The notes under the pieces: generated by a model
What the model saw: the letters and a program-made list of their open reading frames with translations, nothing else
Databases searched by the model: none
What the model was told of the DNA's origin: nothing
Shown: piece by piece, positions 550-43,530 of the stretch
How positions within the stretch are numbered: the first letter of the stretch is position 1
How the letters are laid out: each line of letters starts with the position of its first letter
Source: a virus
DNA length: 46,856 bases
Strand: one strand, 5' to 3'
IMG/VR virus record: IMGVR_UViG_3300044825_002732
Location: 1-46,856 of that record
Translations under genes and position numbers: made by a program

Positions 550-557
550 TATTTATG
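550..557 (-). promoter_or_regulatory. T4-type late promoter (CATAAATA)
   Basis: The minus strand reads CATAAATA, one base from the T4 late consensus TATAAATA recognised by the gp55 sigma factor. It overlaps the stop codon of the 553-771 gene and lies about 60 bases before the ATG of the coiled-coil gene at 490. Confidence 0.5.
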
Positions 558-771
558 GTTTTGGTTTCATCCACCTTTTACGCGAACCCAGCCCCAAATA
601 GATGTTACGTTTCTTTTTTGGAGAAACTGGTGGAGAATCTGGGGGAAGTCCACTAATTGTTACAGGTTGTCCAGGTTTATTAGTAGAATTAGTTGGTCCT
701 GCACCAGAAGTACTCATTCCCTCTTCACGAAGATTATGAATTATTTGTATTATTCTATCTATTTTTTCCAT
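553..771 (-). CDS. Small conserved phage protein, Pro/Lys-rich C-terminus
   Basis: A 72-residue protein. An N-terminal amphipathic helix (MEKIDRIIQIIHNLREEGMS) is followed by a low-complexity linker, a GLPPDSPP segment near the middle and a basic tail ending KRWMKPKP. I recall similar short proteins (helix, then LPPDSPP, then Lys/Arg-rich end) next to structural genes in T4-like and other myophages, but know no function. It follows the 775-1146 gene after 3 bases, so the two are likely translated from one late transcript. A virion or assembly role is inferred from position only. Confidence 0.65.
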   Translation of the reverse strand: MEKIDRIIQIIHNLREEGMSTSGAGPTNSTNKPGQPVTISGLPPDSPPVSPKKKRNIYLGLGSRKRWMKPKP

Positions 772-774
772 GAA

Positions 775-1146
775 TTAAATTGAATGAAGTTGAGATAAAC
801 AATTGTCATCTGGACAAATATCATTTATTTGAGTTTTTGGATATTCTGGTATTCTATCCAAAAATACTAAAAAACTTTTAATAGAAGGCCATAAATCTCT
901 TTCAAGATTATAAAATAATAAAGGTACGGCAGCATCGTCAAACACATTAAAAAGCACTGTTAAATGATTTAATATCAGGTGTGTTTTTAACACACCTGTA
1001 TTTTTGTATTTTTTCAACAGTCTTTTAATATACTTAATTCTTTTCAAATCATCTTCAAAATCTTCTTTAGTTATAGCCTGAGGATTATTATAAAATTTTA
1101 TAGCAAATAACAAATAATTGTCTTCATTCAATTCATCAAATCTCAT
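775..1146 (-). CDS. Conserved myophage protein of unknown function (MRFDEL family)
   Basis: A 123-residue, mostly helical protein starting MRFDELNEDNYLLFAIKFYN. I recall it as a widely conserved myophage family with the pattern LLFAIKFY, a basic patch near residue 40 and a hydrophobic middle (HLILNHLTVLFNVFDD). It has a CPDDNC cysteine pair near the C-terminus. No enzymatic motif is visible. It lies 9 bases after the 1156-1917 virion gene, and the cluster is probably read from the late promoter at 1949-1956. A structural or assembly role is likely from context, not demonstrated. Confidence 0.65.
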   Translation of the reverse strand: MRFDELNEDNYLLFAIKFYNNPQAITKEDFEDDLKRIKYIKRLLKKYKNTGVLKTHLILNHLTVLFNVFDDAAVPLLFYNLERDLWPSIKSFLVFLDRIPEYPKTQINDICPDDNCLSQLHSI

Positions 1147-1155
1147 AAGTTACTA

Positions 1156-1917
1156 TCATGCATCTAGAAAAAAGGTATCATCTGGAGCATCAGTAGTGGT
1201 ATCAATTCCACCAGCAACTAATACTTCACTCTTAACTCTTAAATTACCATGACAATCAATATAAGTCATGATTCCAACCCATCCACTATGAGCAACAGCA
1301 TACTTTGTAGTGTCAGCAACGCCAACTTCATTAGCATCTACACCAAATACATCTCTAAAATATCCACCTGTCTTTCTTCTAAATTGGATAGTGTCGCCAG
1401 TAGAAATTCCTACAGAAATTGTTGATGCAAGACTTACTGTAGTTGCACCAATTGTTGAAATGACAAGTTCATTTCCACCATTTACAATTGCATCACCTAC
1501 GATTACATCCTTAGTTGCAACAACAACTGGAACAACATTAGTGCCAACACCAGCAGTAGTAGTTGCAGTTGCAGTTACTCCAAAATTCTTAAAGGTTGCA
1601 ACAGCGTCATTTTTATTATTAAAAGTGCTGTCAAATAGAGTATAAATTGGTTGCTGATTGATATAATATGGTACTGAAGGAATTGTTGCAATTCCAGAAA
1701 TAAAACTTCCAGTGTCGGCAATAGAAATGGTTGAAGATGTATATGCAGTTATAACTGCTTGGCCGTAAGTTCCACCAGTTCCAACAGTTATAATATCACC
1801 AGTATTAATGCCAGCGGTGGTAAATGTGGTGCCAGTACCATTTACTGTTTTAGTTCCAAAGTTTACTGAAACAGTACCATCAGAATAAACTAAATCTTTA
1901 GTGCCCCAAAGAGACAT
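1156..1917 (-). CDS. Beta-rich virion structural protein
   Basis: A 253-residue protein starting MSLWGTKDLVYSDGTVSVNF. It is very rich in Thr, Val, Gly and Ile, with short alternating strands and many turns, as in phage fibre, decoration or tail beta proteins. There is no signal peptide or catalytic motif. The C-terminal part (GYFRDVFGVDANEVGVADTT onward) looks like a separate globular domain. I recall homologues starting MSLWG in T4-like cyanophage virions, but cannot give a T4 counterpart. It is preceded by a terminator fused to a perfect TATAAATA late promoter (1949-1985), fitting strong late expression. Confidence 0.7.
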   Translation of the reverse strand: MSLWGTKDLVYSDGTVSVNFGTKTVNGTGTTFTTAGINTGDIITVGTGGTYGQAVITAYTSSTISIADTGSFISGIATIPSVPYYINQQPIYTLFDSTFNNKNDAVATFKNFGVTATATTTAGVGTNVVPVVVATKDVIVGDAIVNGGNELVISTIGATTVSLASTISVGISTGDTIQFRRKTGGYFRDVFGVDANEVGVADTTKYAVAHSGWVGIMTYIDCHGNLRVKSEVLVAGGIDTTTDAPDDTFFLDA

Positions 1918-1948
1918 GTTTCTTTACCCTTAATTTCTAGTATATTGA

Positions 1949-1956
1949 TATTTATA
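1949..1956 (-). promoter_or_regulatory. T4-type late promoter (TATAAATA)
   Basis: Perfect TATAAATA on the minus strand, 32 bases before the ATG at 1917. Its first T is also the last base of the U-tract of the terminator at 1956-1985, so termination of the upstream gene and initiation of this one share DNA. Confidence 0.75.
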
Positions 1957-1985
1957 AAAAAAGGAGACCTTAAGTTTGGTCTCCT
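1956..1985 (-). terminator. Rho-independent terminator
   Basis: On the minus strand AGGAGACC, an 8-base loop and GGTCTCCT form a perfect 8-bp stem followed by seven T residues. It ends the transcript of the 2008-2193 gene and merges into the late promoter at 1949-1956. Confidence 0.85.
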
Positions 1986-2007
1986 AATGTTTTATTTACT
2001 TTAGATT

Positions 2008-2193
2008 TCAAGGAGTTAGATCTTTTGCACCCTTATCCTTCAGTTTACCCTGAAGTTGAAGAAGAACAAATGAAACGATTCCGTTTGATTTAAATTTTGG
2101 ATTTGCACCAAGAGTCTCTGAAATCGCAAATAAAACTGTTGCAATTAAAGCTTCATTTGCCTTAGCCCAAGCGAGCAATGCTGCGACAGACAT
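2008..2193 (-). CDS. Small hydrophobic protein, possible holin-type membrane protein
   Basis: A 61-residue protein starting MSVAALLAWAKANEALIATV. Residues 13-30 form a hydrophobic stretch (ALIATVLFAISETLGANP) that could cross the membrane once. A second, weaker apolar segment lies around FVLLQLQGKL, and the tail is basic. I recall similar ~60-residue proteins in cyanophage structural regions. A holin-like role is possible from size and hydrophobicity but has no direct support. The gene has its own control unit: AATAAATA about 31 bases upstream, a near-perfect GGAGGT ribosome binding site, and the terminator at 1956-1985. That suggests abundant late expression. Confidence 0.65.
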   Translation of the reverse strand: MSVAALLAWAKANEALIATVLFAISETLGANPKFKSNGIVSFVLLQLQGKLKDKGAKDLTP

Positions 2194-2223
2194 AATGACC
2201 TCCGTATGAAGAGTATCTTATGT

Positions 2224-2231
2224 TATTTATT
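2224..2231 (-). promoter_or_regulatory. T4-type late promoter (AATAAATA)
   Basis: AATAAATA on the minus strand, about 31 bases before the ATG at 2193. It is followed by a strong ribosome binding site (GGAGGT, 5 bases before the ATG). Confidence 0.6.
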
Positions 2232-2236
2232 ATTTT

Positions 2237-3769
2237 TTATCTTAGATTTGAATTTCTTTCTCTTGCAGATAATGAAGGATGATCTTCATCTCTTTCTCTT
2301 TCTTGTCTCTGTTTTGACTGCTGCTTTCTAACTGGTTTCATTTTCTGTTTTTCTAAATCAGAATCACTACTCATGAACTGTTTATTTGCAAATCTCTGGG
2401 CGCGATCTGCTCCTTCTTTATCACCCTTTGCTCTTCTTCTCATAGCAAGTTTTTGAGCAGAGTATCCAAGTTTTGTTTCATCAATAAGTTCACCTTCTGG
2501 TTCATAATCCATTTTTAATCCCATAGAACGAAACTTATTTTTTACCATATTCACTTTAGTAGGAATAGATCTTGGATCATCACTATTCATTTTAGAAGAA
2601 TTTGTTTTTTCTTTTTCACCACATTCACAGTCAGTTCCTTCTTTCATTGCTTGCTTACGAATAGTGGCAAAATAAACTTGCTCTCCTTTTTTATCACCGT
2701 ATTCTTTTTTCATTGATGCCTTCATTTCAGAAGGATCATATTTTGCCTTTAATTTTTTTTCTTTCTTTTTTTCAGATTTGGTCATCTTTTTTTCTTGAAG
2801 CATTCCAAGAAATTTTGAGTAACCAGTTTCAGAAATTAGTTCACCATCAAGTTCATTATGAGATAAAATACTATTTGATGGATTTACAACAATTTTATTT
2901 TTTACTTTTGGTGGAAGAATATCAATTTGATTTTGATTTGCATCTGGATTAAGTGATTGGGAACTATCAACTTGAGGTAAATTTGCTGTCGCTGAAATTT
3001 CCCCTAGAAAAAAATTTTCTTTTACACTTGAAGTATCTTTACCATCAGGAATTCCTCCCCTTTTACGCTGAATAGCATTATGTACAGATCCACGATATTC
3101 TTTTGCGCCAGACTCTATCTTACCATCACCATCATAATCTTTTTTTGCTCTTTTACCTAATACTTCAGCAGTCTTTTCACCTTTTGTTCTTTCACCTTCA
3201 TATGGAGTACCATATTCGGTCATTTCAACTTCAAGTCCCTTTGCTCTAAGTTGACTAATTTTTTCACGAGTTGCATATCTTACATAAGTAACTTTACTTT
3301 GCTTATCAGTTACTCTAACTTTATATTTCTTATATTCTGGTGTAGATACAGATGATTCCCCTAATTCTAATTTAAGTTGATCAATATCTACAGTTTCGTT
3401 CTTTTTTTCAACAAATACTTTAAATAAAGCATTTGCCATTGCATCAGAAGCAGATCTCTTCATGTCCATTTTAAAATCTTCTGCCTGCATTCCACCACCT
3501 TTACCAAATAATTTATTTCTAACTTCAGTTTTTTCTGCTTCACTCATTGAACTATTCTGCACATATTGTGAATATGCAGTGCGAAGGGGAAGATTCTCCC
3601 TTCTTGCACGATAACGAATATCATATACAGCTTGTCTTACTCTTTCTTCGGGAGATTTTTCACCTTTTTCTTTATCTTTACCAGCATCAGCACCAGGTTT
3701 TGACTGAGCAGATAATTTTGCCTGTGGATGTTTTCTTGCAGGAAGATCTTCAGCAATATGCTTTTTCAT
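2237..3769 (-). CDS. Multi-module internal/virion protein with EF-hand-like loop
   Basis: A 510-residue, very hydrophilic, Lys/Glu-rich protein built from separate modules. The N-terminus MKKHIAEDLP carries an I-A-E site like those cut by the T4 prohead protease. A helical module follows at about 41-90 (VYDIRYRARRENLPLRTAYS). Residues 211-224 hold DYDGDGKIESGAKE, a DxDxDG calcium-loop-like motif without an acidic residue at loop position 12. Residues ~345-390 contain MKASMKKEYGDKKGEQVYFA. Around 430 is YEPEGELIDE, shared with the composite protein at 43532-45508. The ATG is 9 bases after the nucleotidyltransferase gene. A packaged or capsid-associated role is inferred; no T4 homologue is recognised. 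Confidence 0.65.
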   Translation of the reverse strand: MKKHIAEDLPARKHPQAKLSAQSKPGADAGKDKEKGEKSPEERVRQAVYDIRYRARRENLPLRTAYSQYVQNSSMSEAEKTEVRNKLFGKGGGMQAEDFKMDMKRSASDAMANALFKVFVEKKNETVDIDQLKLELGESSVSTPEYKKYKVRVTDKQSKVTYVRYATREKISQLRAKGLEVEMTEYGTPYEGERTKGEKTAEVLGKRAKKDYDGDGKIESGAKEYRGSVHNAIQRKRGGIPDGKDTSSVKENFFLGEISATANLPQVDSSQSLNPDANQNQIDILPPKVKNKIVVNPSNSILSHNELDGELISETGYSKFLGMLQEKKMTKSEKKKEKKLKAKYDPSEMKASMKKEYGDKKGEQVYFATIRKQAMKEGTDCECGEKEKTNSSKMNSDDPRSIPTKVNMVKNKFRSMGLKMDYEPEGELIDETKLGYSAQKLAMRRRAKGDKEGADRAQRFANKQFMSSDSDLEKQKMKPVRKQQSKQRQERERDEDHPSLSARERNSNLR

Positions 3770-3778
3770 GAGAAGAAT

Positions 3779-5116
3779 TTAACGTTTTACTTTTTTCCTA
3801 TTTGTATTTATCAAATTTATACCATAAGGTTTTCCACCTGGTTGAATATTTTTAGCACCAGTTCCAACTGCACCTGGAGTCATCATTGCAGCATATTTAA
3901 AAAACCCAGTAGTTCCAATTAAAGTATTTGGTTTTCCAGGCATTCTCATTATTCGTGACACTTCTTTTTCAGAATAAGATTCTTTAACATCTTTAATCCA
4001 TGATTTAAACATCATGCCATTTTCTGTAACGCAGATTAAATAATTTGTACCCCTACGAATAATACGACCTATTAATCCAGTATTAAGATTTTCAACAAAC
4101 TGACCTACTTTAAAAATATTCTCATCTATATAATTTTCTCTTAAAGATTTTTGATCAAATTTTGGAGCAACTTCCCAAGTATTGTAACCTTCTTGTTGAA
4201 TTTCTTGTATTCCCATTCCCTGCCTAACTAAATCAAACAATTCAAGTGCTTGTTTAGTTCTGATTTCTTTAGGAAGACCTGCACGAAATGTCATAAAATC
4301 CCCTTCAGCAGCAGCAAGTCTAAGTCTTGATGCTGAGACTCCTTCTACACCCTTATTACTGTCAGGATCCCTATCACCAGATGAAATTACATCAATTATA
4401 TCAAACTGATATAATTGACCATTATAATCATTAGATAGTCTTTCAAATTCTTTAACTCTATCTGCACCACCAACAATTCTCACATTAGCATATCCATCAT
4501 TATGCGCTTTTTTAAGAACATCAAAAATTGTTTTATAGTTTGGATCGTTAACAATTCGTTCACTATGATCAGGGAACAATTTTCTCATGTATGAAATTTT
4601 TGTATCAGGATCTAAAGGATTTTTCTTTTTATCTTGACTACGTGAGGGTACAATTATATAATCTCCACCATCTTCCATTGAAGACATTGCAGCAGTATCC
4701 ATTAATTGTTGATGTCCTATTGTTGGAGGATTAAATCTTCCAAATGCAATGGTAAGAGTTCCTTTAGTTTTTGGAATAGGAAGATATTGTAATGAAGATG
4801 GTTCTTGTTCAAATTGCTGTTCCGGTGCTGGTTGCTGATCAACGGGAATTTGATCTTGAGAAATTTGTTGTTCAGGTGCGTTACTTGCTACAGAACCTAA
4901 AGGAATATTTTTCTCAAATTCAGATTGCTTTGAGTCCCTACCACCAATGACTTGTCGTTTGTTGTAGAACTTAAGTTCAGATCCCACTGTTTTTGCTTCA
5001 AATTCACCAGTAGCCCTATTATACCACCCACCATGCCCATCGCCAACCAGTCCAAGACGCTTTGCCTGAACTGATGCTGAGGTTGCTTCTGAAATAAATT
5101 GAATAAAACTTTTCAT
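3779..5116 (-). CDS. Nucleotidyltransferase (NMN adenylyltransferase-like) with capsid-targeting N-terminus
   Basis: A 445-residue, three-part protein. Residues 1-10, MKSFIQFISE, closely match the T4 capsid-targeting sequence MKTYQEFIAE and end in an I-x-E protease site. After a conserved-looking module (RLGLVGDGHGGWYNRATGEF, 21-40) and a Gln/Pro linker, residues 119-270 are a cytidylyltransferase-like fold. This has GRFNPPTIGH at 126-135 (a TxGH variant of HxGH) and SASRLR at 261-266 in place of the ISSTxxR motif. Residues ~330-385 are a small beta domain (KVGQFVENLNTGLIGRIIRR). The family transfers nucleotidyl groups, for example NMN to NAD. I infer a virion-packaged enzyme; its substrate is unknown. 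Confidence 0.7.
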   Translation of the reverse strand: MKSFIQFISEATSASVQAKRLGLVGDGHGGWYNRATGEFEAKTVGSELKFYNKRQVIGGRDSKQSEFEKNIPLGSVASNAPEQQISQDQIPVDQQPAPEQQFEQEPSSLQYLPIPKTKGTLTIAFGRFNPPTIGHQQLMDTAAMSSMEDGGDYIIVPSRSQDKKKNPLDPDTKISYMRKLFPDHSERIVNDPNYKTIFDVLKKAHNDGYANVRIVGGADRVKEFERLSNDYNGQLYQFDIIDVISSGDRDPDSNKGVEGVSASRLRLAAAEGDFMTFRAGLPKEIRTKQALELFDLVRQGMGIQEIQQEGYNTWEVAPKFDQKSLRENYIDENIFKVGQFVENLNTGLIGRIIRRGTNYLICVTENGMMFKSWIKDVKESYSEKEVSRIMRMPGKPNTLIGTTGFFKYAAMMTPGAVGTGAKNIQPGGKPYGINLINTNRKKVKR

Positions 5117-5168
5117 CCTATACTTTTATATTATTACAGACTTGTGTATTATTAACCTGTTTAATATA

Positions 5169-5176
5169 TATTTATT
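5169..5176 (-). promoter_or_regulatory. T4-type late promoter (AATAAATA)
   Basis: AATAAATA on the minus strand, about 53 bases before the ATG of the nucleotidyltransferase gene and just after the 3' end of the tRNA. It would separate late transcription of the virion genes from the tRNA and replication operon. Confidence 0.55.
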
Positions 5177-5186
5177 CCTTTTATAA

Positions 5187-5257
5187 TGGAGAATACCAGA
5201 GTCGAACTGGTGACTGATGCTTGCAAAGCACCCATTTTACCACTAAACTAATCCCCC
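5187..5257 (-). tRNA. tRNA-Ala (anticodon UGC)
   Basis: All four arms fold over 71 bases: acceptor GGGGGAT/ATTCTCC, D stem GTTT/AAAT, anticodon stem GGTGC/GCATC with loop TTTGCAA (anticodon TGC), and T stem ACCAG/CTGGT with loop TTCGACT. The acceptor has the G3-U70 wobble pair, the main alanine identity element, and the discriminator base is A. CCA is not encoded. The host enzyme would have to add it. It decodes GCA and GCG; GCA appears common in the virion genes here. It lies between the HExxH gene and the nucleotidyltransferase gene. Confidence 0.95.
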
Positions 5258-5273
5258 AATAAAAAGAATTATA

Positions 5274-22961: not shown

Positions 22962-24665
22962 TCAATCTTCAAAAATAAGATTTATCCAAGATTCACTCAT
23001 AGAATTCATAATTGCTACAGCAGTTTTTTCGTCAGAAGCATATCCCCCATGAATTAAATGTCCAATTACAATTTCTTCTTTCATTTGAGTTGTATATTTT
23101 TTACCACGGAATTCAAATTGTTTTTGTCCGGAAGTTCTTGCCTTTTTAAAAGCAACATCAAAATCTCCAGCAACACTACCAGTTCCTACTATTTTGGGCC
23201 CGACTTTTTTACGACTACGAATGGTAGTATCAGGATCCATAGTATTGTAAACATCAGTTTTTATAGACTGACGAATCTTCTGATCTTGCTTTCTCTTATT
23301 TTCTTTACCTACCTGATCAACTGCGGCCGCTCCTGCCGCAGCAGTTCCAACAATTCCTGCAGTTTTTAGATTTCTTGATAAAGAAGAAGTTGAAGATTTT
23401 GACGGACCACCAGAAGAAGATGATCCTGTTGCATATTTTTCTAAACCTGGATACTTCATATTTCCAGTTTTTTCTGCAGGAGATAAAGTAGCACGAACAG
23501 TTTGTGTCAAACCACCACCTTTAGATGGTTTTTCACCTCCAGAAGTAGATCGATTTGTTTTTGGTTTAGTTGTTGGTTTTGGTGCTCTTGTACGAACCAA
23601 TGCACCTGCAAGTTCCGGAGTTTCTTTAGTTTTAGGAAGTGCTTCAGGTTTAAAAGTTGGTTTTGGTGCTCTTGTACGAACCAATGCACCTGCAGGTTCA
23701 GCAGTAGATGATTTAACCTTAGGAAGTGCTTCAGGTTTAAAAGTTGGTTTTGGTGCTTTGGTTGTCACTAAGGAACCTGCAGGTTCAGCAGTAGATGATT
23801 TAACCTTAGGAAGTGCTTCAGGTTTAAAAGTTGGTTTTGGTGCTTTGGTTGTCACTAAGGAACCTGCAGGTTCTGATGTTGCTTTAGTTTTAGGAAGTGC
23901 TTCAGGTTTAAAAGTTGGTTTTGGTGCTTTGGTTGTCACTAAGGAACCTGCAGGTTCAGCAGTAGATGATTTAACCTTAGGAAGTGCTTCAGGTTTAAAA
24001 GTTGGTTTTGGTGCTCTTGTACGAACCAATGCACCTGCAGGTTCAGCAGTAGATGATTTAACCTTAGGAAGTGCTTCAGGTTTAAAAGTTGGTTTTGGTG
24101 CCTTTACACTTGCAGATGTTTCTCCTGCTGAAGGAAGTGCTGGTCTAGAAGGTGTACCAGATAATGCCTTAGTAGATGTTACTTTAGTTCCAGAAGGTTT
24201 AGATGGATTTATACGACTTCTGGGTGCTGTTGGTTCATTCCAAACATTGGTTGTAATTTTATTTGAACCTTTTGGAGCAGTTCTAGCAGGTGACGCTTTT
24301 ACTGTTCGGACTATTGGAGTTGGTGAAGCAGATTTTGCAACATTTTGTGCCAATTTAGCAGTTGAAACTGGATTGAGTGCAGTACTAGTAATAAGAGAAT
24401 CAGTAGCTGCAGTTCTTAAGGGTGTTTTTGCTCTTTTTGCAATAAAACCTGCTACTGCTTTTGCACCTTTAACTAAAGAACCCAATCCAGCCTCATTAAT
24501 GAGTTCAACCATTATTTGATTAGACTCTTCTTTACTATATCCTTCACTTAAAAGGTATTCTAAAATTTGATCATAATTATCAACTTCTTCAACTGATTTA
24601 TTTTGAACTTGCCCATAAATTTTATTATAGGATTCCATTAATCCTAACATTTCTTGGTATCTCAT
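22962..24665 (-). CDS. Repeat-rich virion protein with duplicated helical end modules
   Basis: A 567-residue protein. An N-terminal helical module (DQILEYLLSEGYSKEESNQI) is matched by a similar one near the C-terminus (VIGHLIHGGYASDEKTAVAI, then MSESWINLIFED). Between them is a Pro/Lys/Thr-rich region with six 28-29-residue repeats of the type APKPTFKPEALPKVKSSTAE plus PAGxLVxTx. A module FKKARTSGQKQFEFRGKKYT near residue 520 recalls one in phage internal virion proteins. I chose the ATG at 24665; an upstream TTG is less likely. The TATAAATA at 24687-24694 suits a late virion gene. Its function is unknown. Confidence 0.72.
   Translation of the reverse strand: MRYQEMLGLMESYNKIYGQVQNKSVEEVDNYDQILEYLLSEGYSKEESNQIMVELINEAGLGSLVKGAKAVAGFIAKRAKTPLRTAATDSLITSTALNPVSTAKLAQNVAKSASPTPIVRTVKASPARTAPKGSNKITTNVWNEPTAPRSRINPSKPSGTKVTSTKALSGTPSRPALPSAGETSASVKAPKPTFKPEALPKVKSSTAEPAGALVRTRAPKPTFKPEALPKVKSSTAEPAGSLVTTKAPKPTFKPEALPKTKATSEPAGSLVTTKAPKPTFKPEALPKVKSSTAEPAGSLVTTKAPKPTFKPEALPKVKSSTAEPAGALVRTRAPKPTFKPEALPKTKETPELAGALVRTRAPKPTTKPKTNRSTSGGEKPSKGGGLTQTVRATLSPAEKTGNMKYPGLEKYATGSSSSGGPSKSSTSSLSRNLKTAGIVGTAAAGAAAVDQVGKENKRKQDQKIRQSIKTDVYNTMDPDTTIRSRKKVGPKIVGTGSVAGDFDVAFKKARTSGQKQFEFRGKKYTTQMKEEIVIGHLIHGGYASDEKTAVAIMNSMSESWINLIFED
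23576..24103 (-). repeat. Six tandem in-frame repeats of 84-87 bp
   Basis: Six adjacent units encode APKPTFKPEALPK, then KSSTAEPAG or a variant, then ALVRTR or SLVTTK. Units are nearly identical at the DNA level and mix two linker types and two ends. The order of variants suggests expansion by recombination between copies. Length polymorphism among relatives would be expected. Confidence 0.9.
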
Positions 24666-24681
24666 TTTATACAAAGACTTT

Positions 24682-26811: not shown

Positions 26812-27848
26812 TCTACTTCGCAAGATTGTCTGTATAAATCTTGAAAAATTCCTTTAATAATATTTTTATCAAGATTGAACTCAGACTCATCGATATAACG
26901 ATTTAGAATTGAAATTGTATTCTCTTCTTCATCAATTTTAAAATCTTCACTTTCCTGAATTTCAAAATTTTCAATAATTTTGAGTTCTTGAATTCCCGAT
27001 GAATAAAGTTTATCAATAAACTTTTCAAAATCTTTTGGTTTAGATTTTTTTCTTACAATCACCTTAACAATTTTGTTTTCATATTCAGTAGTATCAAACA
27101 ATTGATAAGGTGTATCCTCATAATAAATGTTATAGAATAATTTATAAGGATTGTTAATTGGAAAATGCTCCAATGTTTCAGTATCAAAAATATGAAATCC
27201 TCTGGTATCGTTTACATCGGTCCAAAACATTTCATATGGATTACCCAGATAGAAAACCTTACCATTATCTGAGCGAGTATGGTAATGACCAGAAAATACT
27301 TTAATAAACTTATCAAAGATTTTAGGGTCAGTACCGTGGTCTTCCATTACTAGATTTCGGTTTACACGAAAACCTTGAAGTTCTAGATGTCCAAAGGCAA
27401 CTGGTGCTTTCGACTTATTAATTACTTTTAAAGTTTCATCATAATTCTCACTACAAATCCATGGAATAAAAGTCATATCAAGTCCTTTGACTTTTGTATT
27501 TGTTGGAGAACTATAAGTTTTGATATTCGAATAATCTTTGAGAAGTAGTGCTGGAGAATTTACATCGTTGGTATTCTTATAATAACAATCATGATTACCA
27601 ACAATCATATGAGTTTCATAATTACGAAGAGGTTCAAACACAACTCTCTTTGCCCATTCTAGACTTTGGTAATCAATTGATTTACGACTATCAAAAGCAT
27701 CACCCATATGAATGACTGCTTCTACTCCATATTCTTTTAAAGCAGGAAAGAAAATATTCTTATAAAAAAGTTCAAAGTAATCATGAAGATACTTGGATCC
27801 TTTCCTGGCGCCATAGTGAGAGTCAGTATAAACAGCAATAAGGCTCAT
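26808..27848 (-). CDS. gp47: Recombination nuclease subunit (gp47, Mre11/SbcD-like)
   Basis: A 346-residue metallophosphoesterase with the usual motifs in order: DSH (9-11), GDAFDSR, GNHDC, and GHYHTR. These residues bind two metal ions that drive DNA cleavage. It is the nuclease partner of gp46, making 3' single strands for recombination. Length is nearly that of T4 gp47 (339). Its ATG overlaps the gp55 stop by 4 bases, so late sigma factor and nuclease are translated together. Confidence 0.96.
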   Translation of the reverse strand: MSLIAVYTDSHYGARKGSKYLHDYFELFYKNIFFPALKEYGVEAVIHMGDAFDSRKSIDYQSLEWAKRVVFEPLRNYETHMIVGNHDCYYKNTNDVNSPALLLKDYSNIKTYSSPTNTKVKGLDMTFIPWICSENYDETLKVINKSKAPVAFGHLELQGFRVNRNLVMEDHGTDPKIFDKFIKVFSGHYHTRSDNGKVFYLGNPYEMFWTDVNDTRGFHIFDTETLEHFPINNPYKLFYNIYYEDTPYQLFDTTEYENKIVKVIVRKKSKPKDFEKFIDKLYSSGIQELKIIENFEIQESEDFKIDEEENTISILNRYIDESEFNLDKNIIKGIFQDLYRQSCEVE

Positions 27849-28321
27849 CGATTGTTTCTGTGTGAAATAGCATCTTTGATAGAATTATACTCGCTACTAT
27901 GCCCAGAAAGCAAGCTGTCGTCAACCATCATTACCTCATCAAACCCAGTACGTTCAATAATCTTTGTTTTAATATCCAATTGCTTCTTTTCTTTTTGAAT
28001 TCTTCTCAAAAATGCGTAATGAATAATTTGAGTGAAGTATGCAAAAGGATTCTTAGATTTCTCTGGATCAAAATTGTGAATATATTGTACACAATTTTCA
28101 ATTCCATCAGAAATCATATCCTCACGGAACATATAATTTACAAAGTTTGGTTTATATGATAAATGAGTCGCAATCTTCAGAAAACACTCACCAAGATAAT
28201 TTGTAATTCTTGGTTTAGGCAATCCCTTTTCTTTAGCAGCAACAACTTTAGCACGATATACAATCAGTGCTTCTAGTAACTCTTTATTATTTACATAATG
28301 TTCTGTTTTCTTCTTTGACAT
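27845..28321 (-). CDS. gp55: Late transcription sigma factor (gp55)
   Basis: A 158-residue divergent sigma-70 family factor. In T4 it directs host RNA polymerase to TATAAATA late promoters, with gp45 as activator. The region-2-like core is visible as REDMISDGIENCVQYIHNFD followed by NPFAYFTQIIHYAFLRRIQK. There is no region 4, as in T4 gp55 (185 residues). It has its own promoter (28356-28385) resembling host sigma70 sites, so it can be made before late genes are switched on. The late promoters listed in this window are its predicted targets. Confidence 0.94.
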   Translation of the reverse strand: MSKKKTEHYVNNKELLEALIVYRAKVVAAKEKGLPKPRITNYLGECFLKIATHLSYKPNFVNYMFREDMISDGIENCVQYIHNFDPEKSKNPFAYFTQIIHYAFLRRIQKEKKQLDIKTKIIERTGFDEVMMVDDSLLSGHSSEYNSIKDAISHRNNR

Positions 28322-33027: not shown

Positions 33028-34245
33028 TCACTTTTTAGCGACTCTACTGAGAGTTTGAAGATATGCCTCCATGATTGGGGAAACTGAAGTTGACTCAGAT
33101 CCTTCATATGAAACATCCTCTGATAAATTCTCAGTTACATCTCTTTGAGTACCAGTATTTGTTGGGAAATATGATTCCCTCAGAGTTACTAGTTTCTCAC
33201 GATAGTTCTCTTCACTATCAAACTCAACATTTTCTGCAAGAGAAGCGAGTTTGTCTTTCTGAGAAAGTGCGAGACCCTCAGCGACTTCAGCAAAGATTAC
33301 ATCAGCAACTGACTCCGCTAATCTTCTATTTAGAGCAACATTTCTTTCGATTTGCTCGTTGAGTTTTGCTTCCATTTCATCAAGTTTATCTACCATACTC
33401 TCTAGAACATCATATCTATCTTCAGGAATTGTTACATAATGATCTTCAAAAAGACTCTTCATTCCGGCAAGGAATGATTCGGTCATTTCAGTCTTAAGAC
33501 CGTGCTCGACTGCGAGTGCATTCTCTTGAATCCACTCATCAGCGACATACTCTAGATAAGTATCAACACGATCTACAAGACCTTCTTTAATAATTTCGAT
33601 TTCTTCTACGAGTGCTTGCTCGTATGAAGCTTGAAGTTCTTCTTTAATATCAGCAACCTTAGATTTGATTGCTGCTTCAAAAATAGTACGTGCTTTCTCT
33701 TGGAATTCCTCAGAAAGATCTTCACCTTCAAGAAGAGCATTAACATCTTCTTCGATGTCAAATTCTTCTTTCTTCATTTTTTTACCACCCTCTTCTTCCT
33801 CCTCTTCTTCTTCCTCTTCTTCTTCCTCCTCTTCTTCTTCCTCCTCCTCTTTCTTACCGTGCTTTGCTTCTGCTACGGTTTCTTCTTCATCTTCGACGAT
33901 TTCTTCATCAATTAGATCTTCATCTTCTTCAGTTTCTTCCTTTACACCTTGCCCAGGAAGACCTACAGGAGTAGCGGATGTGTGAGGAGCTTCAGCAGAA
34001 GATGCTTTAGCATTTACTACGTTTCTTACTTGAGCAAGAGTTGCTCCTGGTGTTTTTAGTGTTGCTGAGTCGTCGTCTGGACGATAGTTTTCTGGAGTAG
34101 GGCCACCTAAATCCTCCCAAGCACCAGTCTGCCCTGGAATCATTACTCCAGAAGCATTCTGTGCAATATTGTGCATTGGTTCGGCAGATGCAGCCCCTTT
34201 GGTTACTACGTTTTCCATTTCTTGTAAATTTCTACCAACGGACAT
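33028..34245 (-). CDS. gp22: Prohead scaffold core protein (gp22) with 20-Glu run
   Basis: A 405-residue acidic, coiled-coil-rich scaffold protein, longer than T4 gp22 (269). The core is removed by the gp21 protease as the head matures. The C-terminal ~250 residues align with the family (VTIPEDRYDVLESMVDKLDE, SPIMEAYLQTLSRVAKK). The N-terminal part is disordered, with GAASAEP segments and a run of 20 glutamates (33790-33849) between lysine clusters. A perfect TATAAATA promoter lies 32 bases upstream. It sits between gp21 and gp23, as in T4. Confidence 0.93.
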   Translation of the reverse strand: MSVGRNLQEMENVVTKGAASAEPMHNIAQNASGVMIPGQTGAWEDLGGPTPENYRPDDDSATLKTPGATLAQVRNVVNAKASSAEAPHTSATPVGLPGQGVKEETEEDEDLIDEEIVEDEEETVAEAKHGKKEEEEEEEEEEEEEEEEEEEEGGKKMKKEEFDIEEDVNALLEGEDLSEEFQEKARTIFEAAIKSKVADIKEELQASYEQALVEEIEIIKEGLVDRVDTYLEYVADEWIQENALAVEHGLKTEMTESFLAGMKSLFEDHYVTIPEDRYDVLESMVDKLDEMEAKLNEQIERNVALNRRLAESVADVIFAEVAEGLALSQKDKLASLAENVEFDSEENYREKLVTLRESYFPTNTGTQRDVTENLSEDVSYEGSESTSVSPIMEAYLQTLSRVAKK

Positions 34246-34286: not shown

Positions 34287-34937
34287 TTATAGATTTGAAA
34301 GAAAATCTTGGAATAATTGTAACTTATGTTCTTGAAGTTTTCTTTCATCAATTAATGTATTAATTCTACGCTTTGTAGACTCTGCAAGTCTTTCACGAAG
34401 AATTCCACCTTCCCATACCCATTCTTTTCCTTCCATAATTCCTTGAACAAAAGCATCAGGAGCTGAAGGATCTGCAACAATATCTGCTGCAGTTGCTAAC
34501 ATAAAATCTTCACCGACAATCTTATGCCCCTCATTCGTCATTTTTAATGAACCAACACCACGAGAAGAAACTCCTAGACAAACACCTTCACCAATTAGTG
34601 ATTTTGCAATCTTACCCATTGGTGTTTCAAGAAGTTGTGCCTTACCTCTAAAATTTGTTCCATCTTGTTCAAGAGAAACAATTTTATGAGAAACTCTATC
34701 AAGATTAACAGTAGGACCATCTGGATGTCCTAGTTCACCAAGAGCACGACCTTTGGAAACAAATGATTCATTGTATCTCTTTACCTCACGGGCAAGAGTT
34801 TGCATTGGATACATTCTTCCATTACGATTGCAAATATCACCTTGAAGGAAAATTCCTTCAATAAACATTTTCTTTTCAGCACCTTTCCCTTCAGTGATGA
34901 ATTTTACTTGTGATACTTCTTCTGTGATGAGTTTCAT
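34287..34937 (-). CDS. gp21: Prohead core protease (gp21)
   Basis: A 216-residue serine protease that matures the head by cutting scaffold and capsid proteins after (L/I)-x-E. Catalytic candidates are His71 in LGELGHPDGP and Ser124/Ser125 in CLGVSSRGVG, the pattern of the T4 prohead protease family. VKFITEGKG near the N-terminus contains an I-T-E site that could be a self-cleavage point. Length equals T4 gp21 (212). It should recognise the FLSE site in gp23 and the tag ends noted at 5116, 43530 and 12699. Confidence 0.95.
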   Translation of the reverse strand: MKLITEEVSQVKFITEGKGAEKKMFIEGIFLQGDICNRNGRMYPMQTLAREVKRYNESFVSKGRALGELGHPDGPTVNLDRVSHKIVSLEQDGTNFRGKAQLLETPMGKIAKSLIGEGVCLGVSSRGVGSLKMTNEGHKIVGEDFMLATAADIVADPSAPDAFVQGIMEGKEWVWEGGILRERLAESTKRRINTLIDERKLQEHKLQLFQDFLSNL

Positions 34938-43221: not shown

Positions 43222-43530
43222 TCATTCACTCCACGATAATCTTTCTGGTCTGTATCTTTTTGCGTTTTTTACAGTTACTGAATTTGTAGTTATTGGATAA
43301 ATGTTATGAACAATTGCTCCAGGATATTCTCCCTGAAGTTGCTCTGCAAGTGCATTCTTATCCATAATATTGCCTTCAACTTCCATACGATAAAGTCTAC
43401 CCTGCCAAACTACATCAGCAAGAAAAGACTCTCTAGTAGTTTCTGGTTGTGGTGAGTTCATATAGAGATTTCCATTAAAATCTCCTGCAATATTAATACT
43501 TTCTGAAAGAAATTGTTGAAATGATTTCAT
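43222..43530 (-). CDS. 102-residue protein with capsid-targeting-like N-terminus
   Basis: Starts MKSFQQFLSESINIAGDFNG. The first ten residues match the T4 targeting tag MKTYQEFIAE at 4 positions identically, with conservative changes elsewhere, and end in L-S-E, the same site as gp23 (FLSE). Residues 12-102 form a compact alpha/beta domain (LADVVWQGRLYRMEVEG, LAEQLQGEYPGAIVHNIYPI). I recall related proteins near terminase in cyanophages. Predicted: tag removed by gp21, domain left inside the head. It lies 1 base after the composite protein gene and 3 before the structural gene. Confidence 0.7.
   Translation of the reverse strand: MKSFQQFLSESINIAGDFNGNLYMNSPQPETTRESFLADVVWQGRLYRMEVEGNIMDKNALAEQLQGEYPGAIVHNIYPITTNSVTVKNAKRYRPERLSWSE

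Follow-up and report, generated by a model that had tools for sequence, protein, structure and literature searches.

The open reading frame at positions 3779 to 5116 on the minus strand of a 46,856-nt contig of a T4-like cyanophage (IMG/VR record IMGVR_UViG_3300044825_002732, hereafter the window) encodes a tagged nucleotidyltransferase of 445 amino acids belonging to the T4-GC190/phrog_395 family. We consider it probable (roughly 0.72) that this enzyme is a late-expressed internal head protein which carries a T4-type capsid-targeting sequence (CTS), is cut, is ejected and acts as a nucleotidyltransferase in the host. The tag, an N-terminal module, the late promoter, intact catalytic motifs and the genes for gp21, gp22 and gp55 are all present on the same contig. 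The original prediction had described a nucleotidyltransferase core, a tag and a C-terminal beta domain in this ORF; its coordinates were right, and the gene, with its ATG at 5116, lies on the minus strand. From the N- to the C-terminus, the protein consists of the tag, a small beta module, a linker, the HIGH-type core and the C-terminal beta domain. The linker (aa 56-114; 4775-4951, minus strand) is a low-complexity Q/E/P segment predicted to be disordered, with pLDDT below 50 at aa 72-110.

On sequence grounds, namely column conservation, background rate and synonymous variation, the first ten residues, MKSFIQFISE (aa 1-10; 5087-5116, minus strand), are a T4-type CTS, with a predicted prohead-protease cut after E10. 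To our knowledge, no N-terminal peptide demonstrating the cleavage of this tag has been reported. All of 39 tagged homologs have K2, F4, F7, E10 and A11; at residue 8 they have L or I (V in one case), and positions 3, 5, 6 and 9 are free to vary. The codons of the invariant residues differ synonymously at the DNA level and, therefore, selection acts on the peptide. The core pattern of the tag, [FL]xxF[ILMV]xE, is rare within proteins, being found in 4 of 2,865 internal 30-residue segments from two complete cyanophages and the window. This rarity and the conservation of the columns bear out the earlier proposal of a head-targeting tag. In the CTS of T4, residues 4 and 7 govern targeting and residues 8 and 10 govern cleavage (PMC9026906), and the conserved positions of the 39 homologs coincide with these measured determinants. 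The likeness to the CTS-tagged and ejected T4 internal proteins IPI-III and Alt, which lies in the tag, includes its shortness and N-terminal position, the aromatic residues at 4 and 7, the hydrophobic residue at 8 and E10, and a prohead protease is present in both systems. In contrast to the T4 proteins, the cargo here is a nucleotidyltransferase, and a folded module follows the tag.

A CTS system requires a gp21-type protease and a gp22-type scaffold in the same phage, and both are encoded in the window together with the T4-like head genes gp20 and gp23. The gp21 prohead protease (34287-34937, minus strand; PF03420, E=5e-36) would cut the tag, and the gp22 scaffold (33028-34245, minus strand; PF25623, E=3e-80) would bind it, by analogy with the T4 core. 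A second tagged ORF of 102 amino acids (MKSFQQFLSESI; phrog_1742) was recognised by its tag pattern and PHROG match in the gp15-gp17 region (43222-43530, minus strand); its S-SZBM1 homolog is also tagged and is absent from the S-SZBM1 virion list.

The original prediction of a packaged enzyme is supported by tagged orthologs in four published virion proteomes: S-SM1 (PMC3037559; tag MKKFSAFLNEAE), S-SCSM1 (PMC9602691; MKSFLQFLKEAA), S-SZBM1 (PMC9146016; MRFRQFIIEA) and S-CREM2 (PMC10665884; MKNFSSFLTEA). For the family as a whole, the evidence for packaging is strong and was partly published before; for the present protein in its own phage, packaging is likely by comparison with these orthologs. 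The natural controls provided by split and untagged forms of the enzyme are new here. The S-PM2 ortholog is untagged and undetected in the S-PM2 virion, although this older proteome was less sensitive and missed several structural proteins. The tagged ortholog of S-CREM1 is not named in the text on its 14-protein virion list.

In S-CREM2, the tag pattern occurs within the first 30 residues of 7 of the 219 CDS, with a background expectation below one (p=1.7e-6). Six of these seven are on the published list of 52 virion proteins (hypergeometric p=8e-4; PMC10665884), or five of six when a baseplate protein is left out (p=0.003). Furthermore, the virion proteins of this phage that are classed in the same source as regulatory or DNA-metabolism, outside structure and lysis, are all tagged (4/4), these being a SAM hydrolase, a Cas9-like nuclease, an APH-like kinase and the cytidylyltransferase. 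The SAM hydrolase (L254:3837-5081; Pfam S-AdoMet_lyase, 2.3e-19) starts with the tag MKDFDSFLEE. As a virion predictor by itself in S-SZBM1, the tag pattern proved weak, since SSZBM1_191 is tagged yet undetected in the S-SZBM1 virion proteome.

The protein might instead be structural or part of the scaffold, having kept its fold although no enzyme activity is required of it, or it might come from contamination of the phage preparations; we regard this as improbable. The authors of the proteomes caution that CsCl-purified phage may carry such proteins as contaminants, and the copy number reported for the S-SZBM1 virion is low (emPAI 0.26). Nevertheless, the tags specifically mark virion enzymes, and even very divergent members, untagged and jumbo-phage forms among them, have kept the catalytic motifs.

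The gene had been thought to sit among virion genes behind a late promoter. The promoter part of this claim stands, but the gene lies away from the main virion block and opens a small late island (0.5-5.2 kb) embedded in the replication cluster, with gp41 and mazG lying just upstream. A motif search placed the promoter AATAAATA at 5169-5176 (minus strand), 53 nt upstream of the ATG; it is of the NATAAATA type, which has been described as the late promoter of cyanophages (PMC2984593). Among IMG/VR relatives, such a site precedes 49 of 52 distinct genes of the window type, versus 7.6% of random positions. In the window, the coding strand has 18 copies of the motif and the opposite strand two. 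The gp55 late sigma factor, which would read this promoter, is encoded at 27845-28321 (minus strand; phrog_234, E=1.5e-70). Within 557-5176 (minus strand), most island genes have their own NATAAATA promoter and the upstream replication genes have almost none. We rejected the late promoter as a feature separating tagged from untagged forms, as 0 of 45 tagged genes of the Syn33 type and 0 of 61 untagged genes have it; both kinds lie inside operons, with promoter-like sites further upstream. A tRNA-Ala(TGC) gene (5186-5258, minus strand) directly precedes the late promoter of the enzyme gene, and a tRNA-Ala is likewise close to the ortholog in S-SCSM1. Elsewhere in the window, a 570-aa protein with about seven tandem repeats of the APKPTFKPEALPKVKSSTAEPAGALV type and no PHROG match is encoded behind an ATAAATA site (22962-24674, minus strand).

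A module of about 35 residues follows the tag in most tagged homologs. In the present protein, this "GHG" module (aa 17-50, the QAKRLGLVGDGHGGWYNRATGEFEAKTVGSELKF region; 4967-5068, minus strand) is predicted to fold as a small four-stranded sheet, and profile searches found it in unrelated packaged enzymes. A profile built from the N-termini of the family alone (54 sequences) matched, outside the family, kinases, a Cas9-like protein and gene 128 of S-CRM01: two copies in the S-CREM2 kinase (E=1.6e-10), the S-CREM2 Cas9-like/HNH protein (1.2e-8), S-CRM01 gene 128 (4e-10) and the S-CRM01 kinase (8.5e-4). An independent search with the module of the Cas9-like protein matched the cytidyltransferases of the phage collection at 6e-6. 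With a broader profile, built including those sequences, the module was recovered in 9 of 12 records; it was not recovered in S-SZBM1, S-PM2 and S-RSM4 and, therefore, is not required everywhere for packaging. The Cas9-like/HNH protein and the kinase, in which the module occurs twice, are encoded in S-CREM2 at L254:7704-10313 and L254:10579-12846. Scans of viral contigs with these two proteins found no relatives.

From these sequence comparisons, the GHG module is an added cassette. Like the present enzyme, the packaged SAM lyase, APH-like kinase and Cas9-like/HNH protein of S-CREM2 all carry the tag, and the module is found twice in the kinase and once in the Cas9-like protein, but their enzyme domains are unrelated to the nucleotidyltransferase. 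The idea that T4-like cyanophages load variable injected enzymes by means of a portable cassette, composed of the tag and the GHG module of about 35 residues, appears to us evenly balanced; its cargo would include the nucleotidyltransferase, a protein kinase and an HNH nuclease, with the SAM lyase carrying the tag alone. Our search, which covered mainly openly accessible literature, found no paper linking capsid-targeting tags with cyanophage cargo, and neither the tag nor the module was found described in the accessible parts of the papers on the T4-GC190 family. What appears to be new here is the recognition of a T4-type CTS in the tag, the agreement between tagged and packaged enzymes in S-CREM2, and the sharing of the module by unrelated cargo.

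The nucleotidyltransferase class of the original prediction is supported by Pfam and PHROG matches, motifs and fold. The core (aa 118-300; 4217-4765, minus strand) belongs to the HIGH superfamily according to its PF01467 match, predicted structure and fold search. PF01467 (CTP_transf_like) matches aa 123-228 with 29.6 bits, above the cut-off of 21, and phrog_395 ("cytidyltransferase") matches aa 115-417, covering the core and the C-terminal domain, with E=3.3e-100. The two motifs by which the core had been recognised were both confirmed. The (H/T)xGH catalytic motif GRFNPPTIGH (aa 126-135; 4712-4741, minus strand) is mostly invariant in 46 sequences and kept in jumbo-phage members, and the second nucleotide-binding motif SASRLR (aa 261-266; 4319-4336, minus strand) has S261 and R266 invariant in the same 46. 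Indeed, the TxGH and SxSxxR-type motifs are found in 46/46 aligned members, and the motif set is largely kept in jumbo-phage and pelagiphage members, some with HxGH for TxGH and with a variant proline in RaK2. The family also has conserved motifs of its own (SxSxDxKKNPL, GxDRV and SAGxRDPD). Confidence in the predicted structure of the core is mostly high (block pLDDT 74-91), except for a low-confidence loop at aa 250-256.

In the cyanophage core genome, the enzyme corresponds to cluster T4-GC190, a "cytitidyltransferase" (phrog_395) whose members include the S-SCSM1 NMNAT ORF91, S-SM1_190 and S-SRM01 QPX48223. These orthologs align over nearly the full length, with the same tag, module, core and C-terminal domain, the identity being 49% with S-SCSM1 and 82%, over the full length, with S-SRM01, the nearest annotated phage. 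The neighbourhood is also the same (gp41/mazG ... gp61/nrdA), the S-SRM01 ortholog being located between mazG and the gp61/nrdA block. There is no essential difference, and the present protein adds a new sequence to a family already known.

The original prediction had further assigned the core to the NMN adenylyltransferase/cytidylyltransferase type and proposed a structural comparison with other nucleotidyltransferases. In our fold search, bacterial NadD (8.5e-6) and human NMNAT1 (2.2e-5) ranked first, but PPAT (CoaD; 3.1e-5) was comparable, with higher target-normalised TM-scores. The fold and the (H/T)xGH and SxSxxR motifs are alike in these enzymes and in the present core; however, the identity is only about 13-17%, and the family-own motifs and the failure of all curated NMNAT cut-offs (TIGR01526, 21.3 versus 341 bits; TIGR00482, 15.7 versus 112) set it apart. 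A sequence search of solved structures gave nothing for the single protein and, for the profile, solely matches with E above 0.2. Because of the weak curated NMNAT matches, the comparable fold match to PPAT and the family-own motifs, we place the enzyme among the HIGH-type nucleotidyltransferases, where it is likely to be an adenylyltransferase, and do not class it as an NMNAT. Nucleotidyl transfer itself is likely, judging from the motifs and the predicted structure. The label "cytidyltransferase" seems to derive from what the Pfam family is called, and nothing that we found favours CTP over ATP.

Among the candidate substrates, NMN or NaMN ranks first, at somewhat less than even odds. Once injected, a true NMN/NaMN adenylyltransferase would raise or restore the NAD of the host, for instance in the face of an NAD-depleting defence, much as had been suggested from the DNA alone. 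The ranking of NadD and NMNAT in the fold search, the fact that NadR and TIGR00482 are the closest sequence models, and the annotation of several orthologs as NMNAT, with the same role already proposed in published work, speak for this possibility; the scores far below the curated cut-offs, the equally good PPAT match and the family-specific DxKKNPL, GxDR and SAGxRDPD motifs speak against it. We recognised in the protein no Trp of the kind that stacks on nicotinamide in NadD and NMNAT. Phages can replenish NAD by a NAMPT+NMNAT pathway, NARP2, in which the same phage encodes a nicotinamide phosphoribosyltransferase as partner. A gene of the NAPRTase/NAMPT family (PF04095) was not found in any of the 11 complete relatives (the control genomes were positive, and the window is a fragment) and, therefore, nicotinamide released by an NADase would not be re-usable by such a phage pathway, which weakens the idea of NAD being rebuilt after NADase action. 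Rebuilding without NAMPT would need a source of NMN, such as the NAD-dependent DNA ligase of the host. A role in NAD metabolism falls a little short of an even chance.

The C-terminal beta domain (aa 334-374; 3995-4117, minus strand), a small beta-barrel-like domain with predicted strands at aa 340-373, was likewise borne out. It occurs solely with this enzyme, in one place per record in 475 phage records, either fused or as a neighbouring ORF. In S-RSM4-type phages, it forms a separate ORF directly downstream of the untagged core (78 of 79 loci), which mostly starts with the tag-like MKDFKKLRE. This split arrangement with a tag-like start would fit a C-terminal domain that binds or guides the core. 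The label "ribonucleotide reductase alpha subunit" of phrog_4808 was rejected, as this is the same small beta domain and the true NrdA of S-RSM4 is a separate gene.

A further, rather unlikely reading is that the enzyme works with a ligase-like partner, DUF6267, to repair or modify nucleic-acid ends, or supplies a nucleotide cofactor for that reaction. DUF6267 is present in 11/11 complete genomes, lies directly upstream of the enzyme in Syn33, S-SM1, S-RSM4 and S-SZBM1, is joined to it in S-PM2 and phrog_455, and has an invariant KWDGAP and conserved EGYV-type motifs, which are ligase-like. However, the two genes are far apart in S-SRM01, P-SSM2 and S-CREM2, and a Foldseek search with the DUF6267 model gave no significant match, with DNA ligases at E of about 0.16-0.24 (probability 0.2-0.5). 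DUF6267 (PF19782) was also seen adjacent or fused to the nucleotidyltransferase at L085:3781-4983 and L084:3869-4765. In S-PM2 (NC_006820, 103025-104804), the two domains run together, with a 591-aa form in BFVD, and a sequence error may have broken a single gene into the two annotated ORFs.

In the favoured reading of an injected nucleotidyltransferase, the protein would be expressed late as an internal head protein, its first ten residues would bind the prohead core as a T4-type CTS, and gp21 would cut after E10, so that the GHG module stays in the head together with the enzyme core and the beta domain. A second cut may follow at LRE-327 (aa 325-327; 4136-4144, minus strand), a possible prohead-protease site between the core and the C-terminal domain, where [LI]xE is found in 97% of tagged homologs. 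The enzyme would then be ejected with the DNA and would act in the host before phage gene expression, presumably with an NTP as the donor of an NMP and a small phosphorylated compound as the acceptor.

These results point to a small shared module and to a core cyanophage gene for a likely nucleotidyltransferase. Enzymes have repeatedly been found in cyanophage virions with their entry route unexplained and have been suspected to be contaminants. A tag with the residues required in T4, marking packaged enzymes, provides both an entry route and a sequence-based prediction of injected effectors and, if the portable cassette is real, the tag would show from sequence which effectors marine phages inject.
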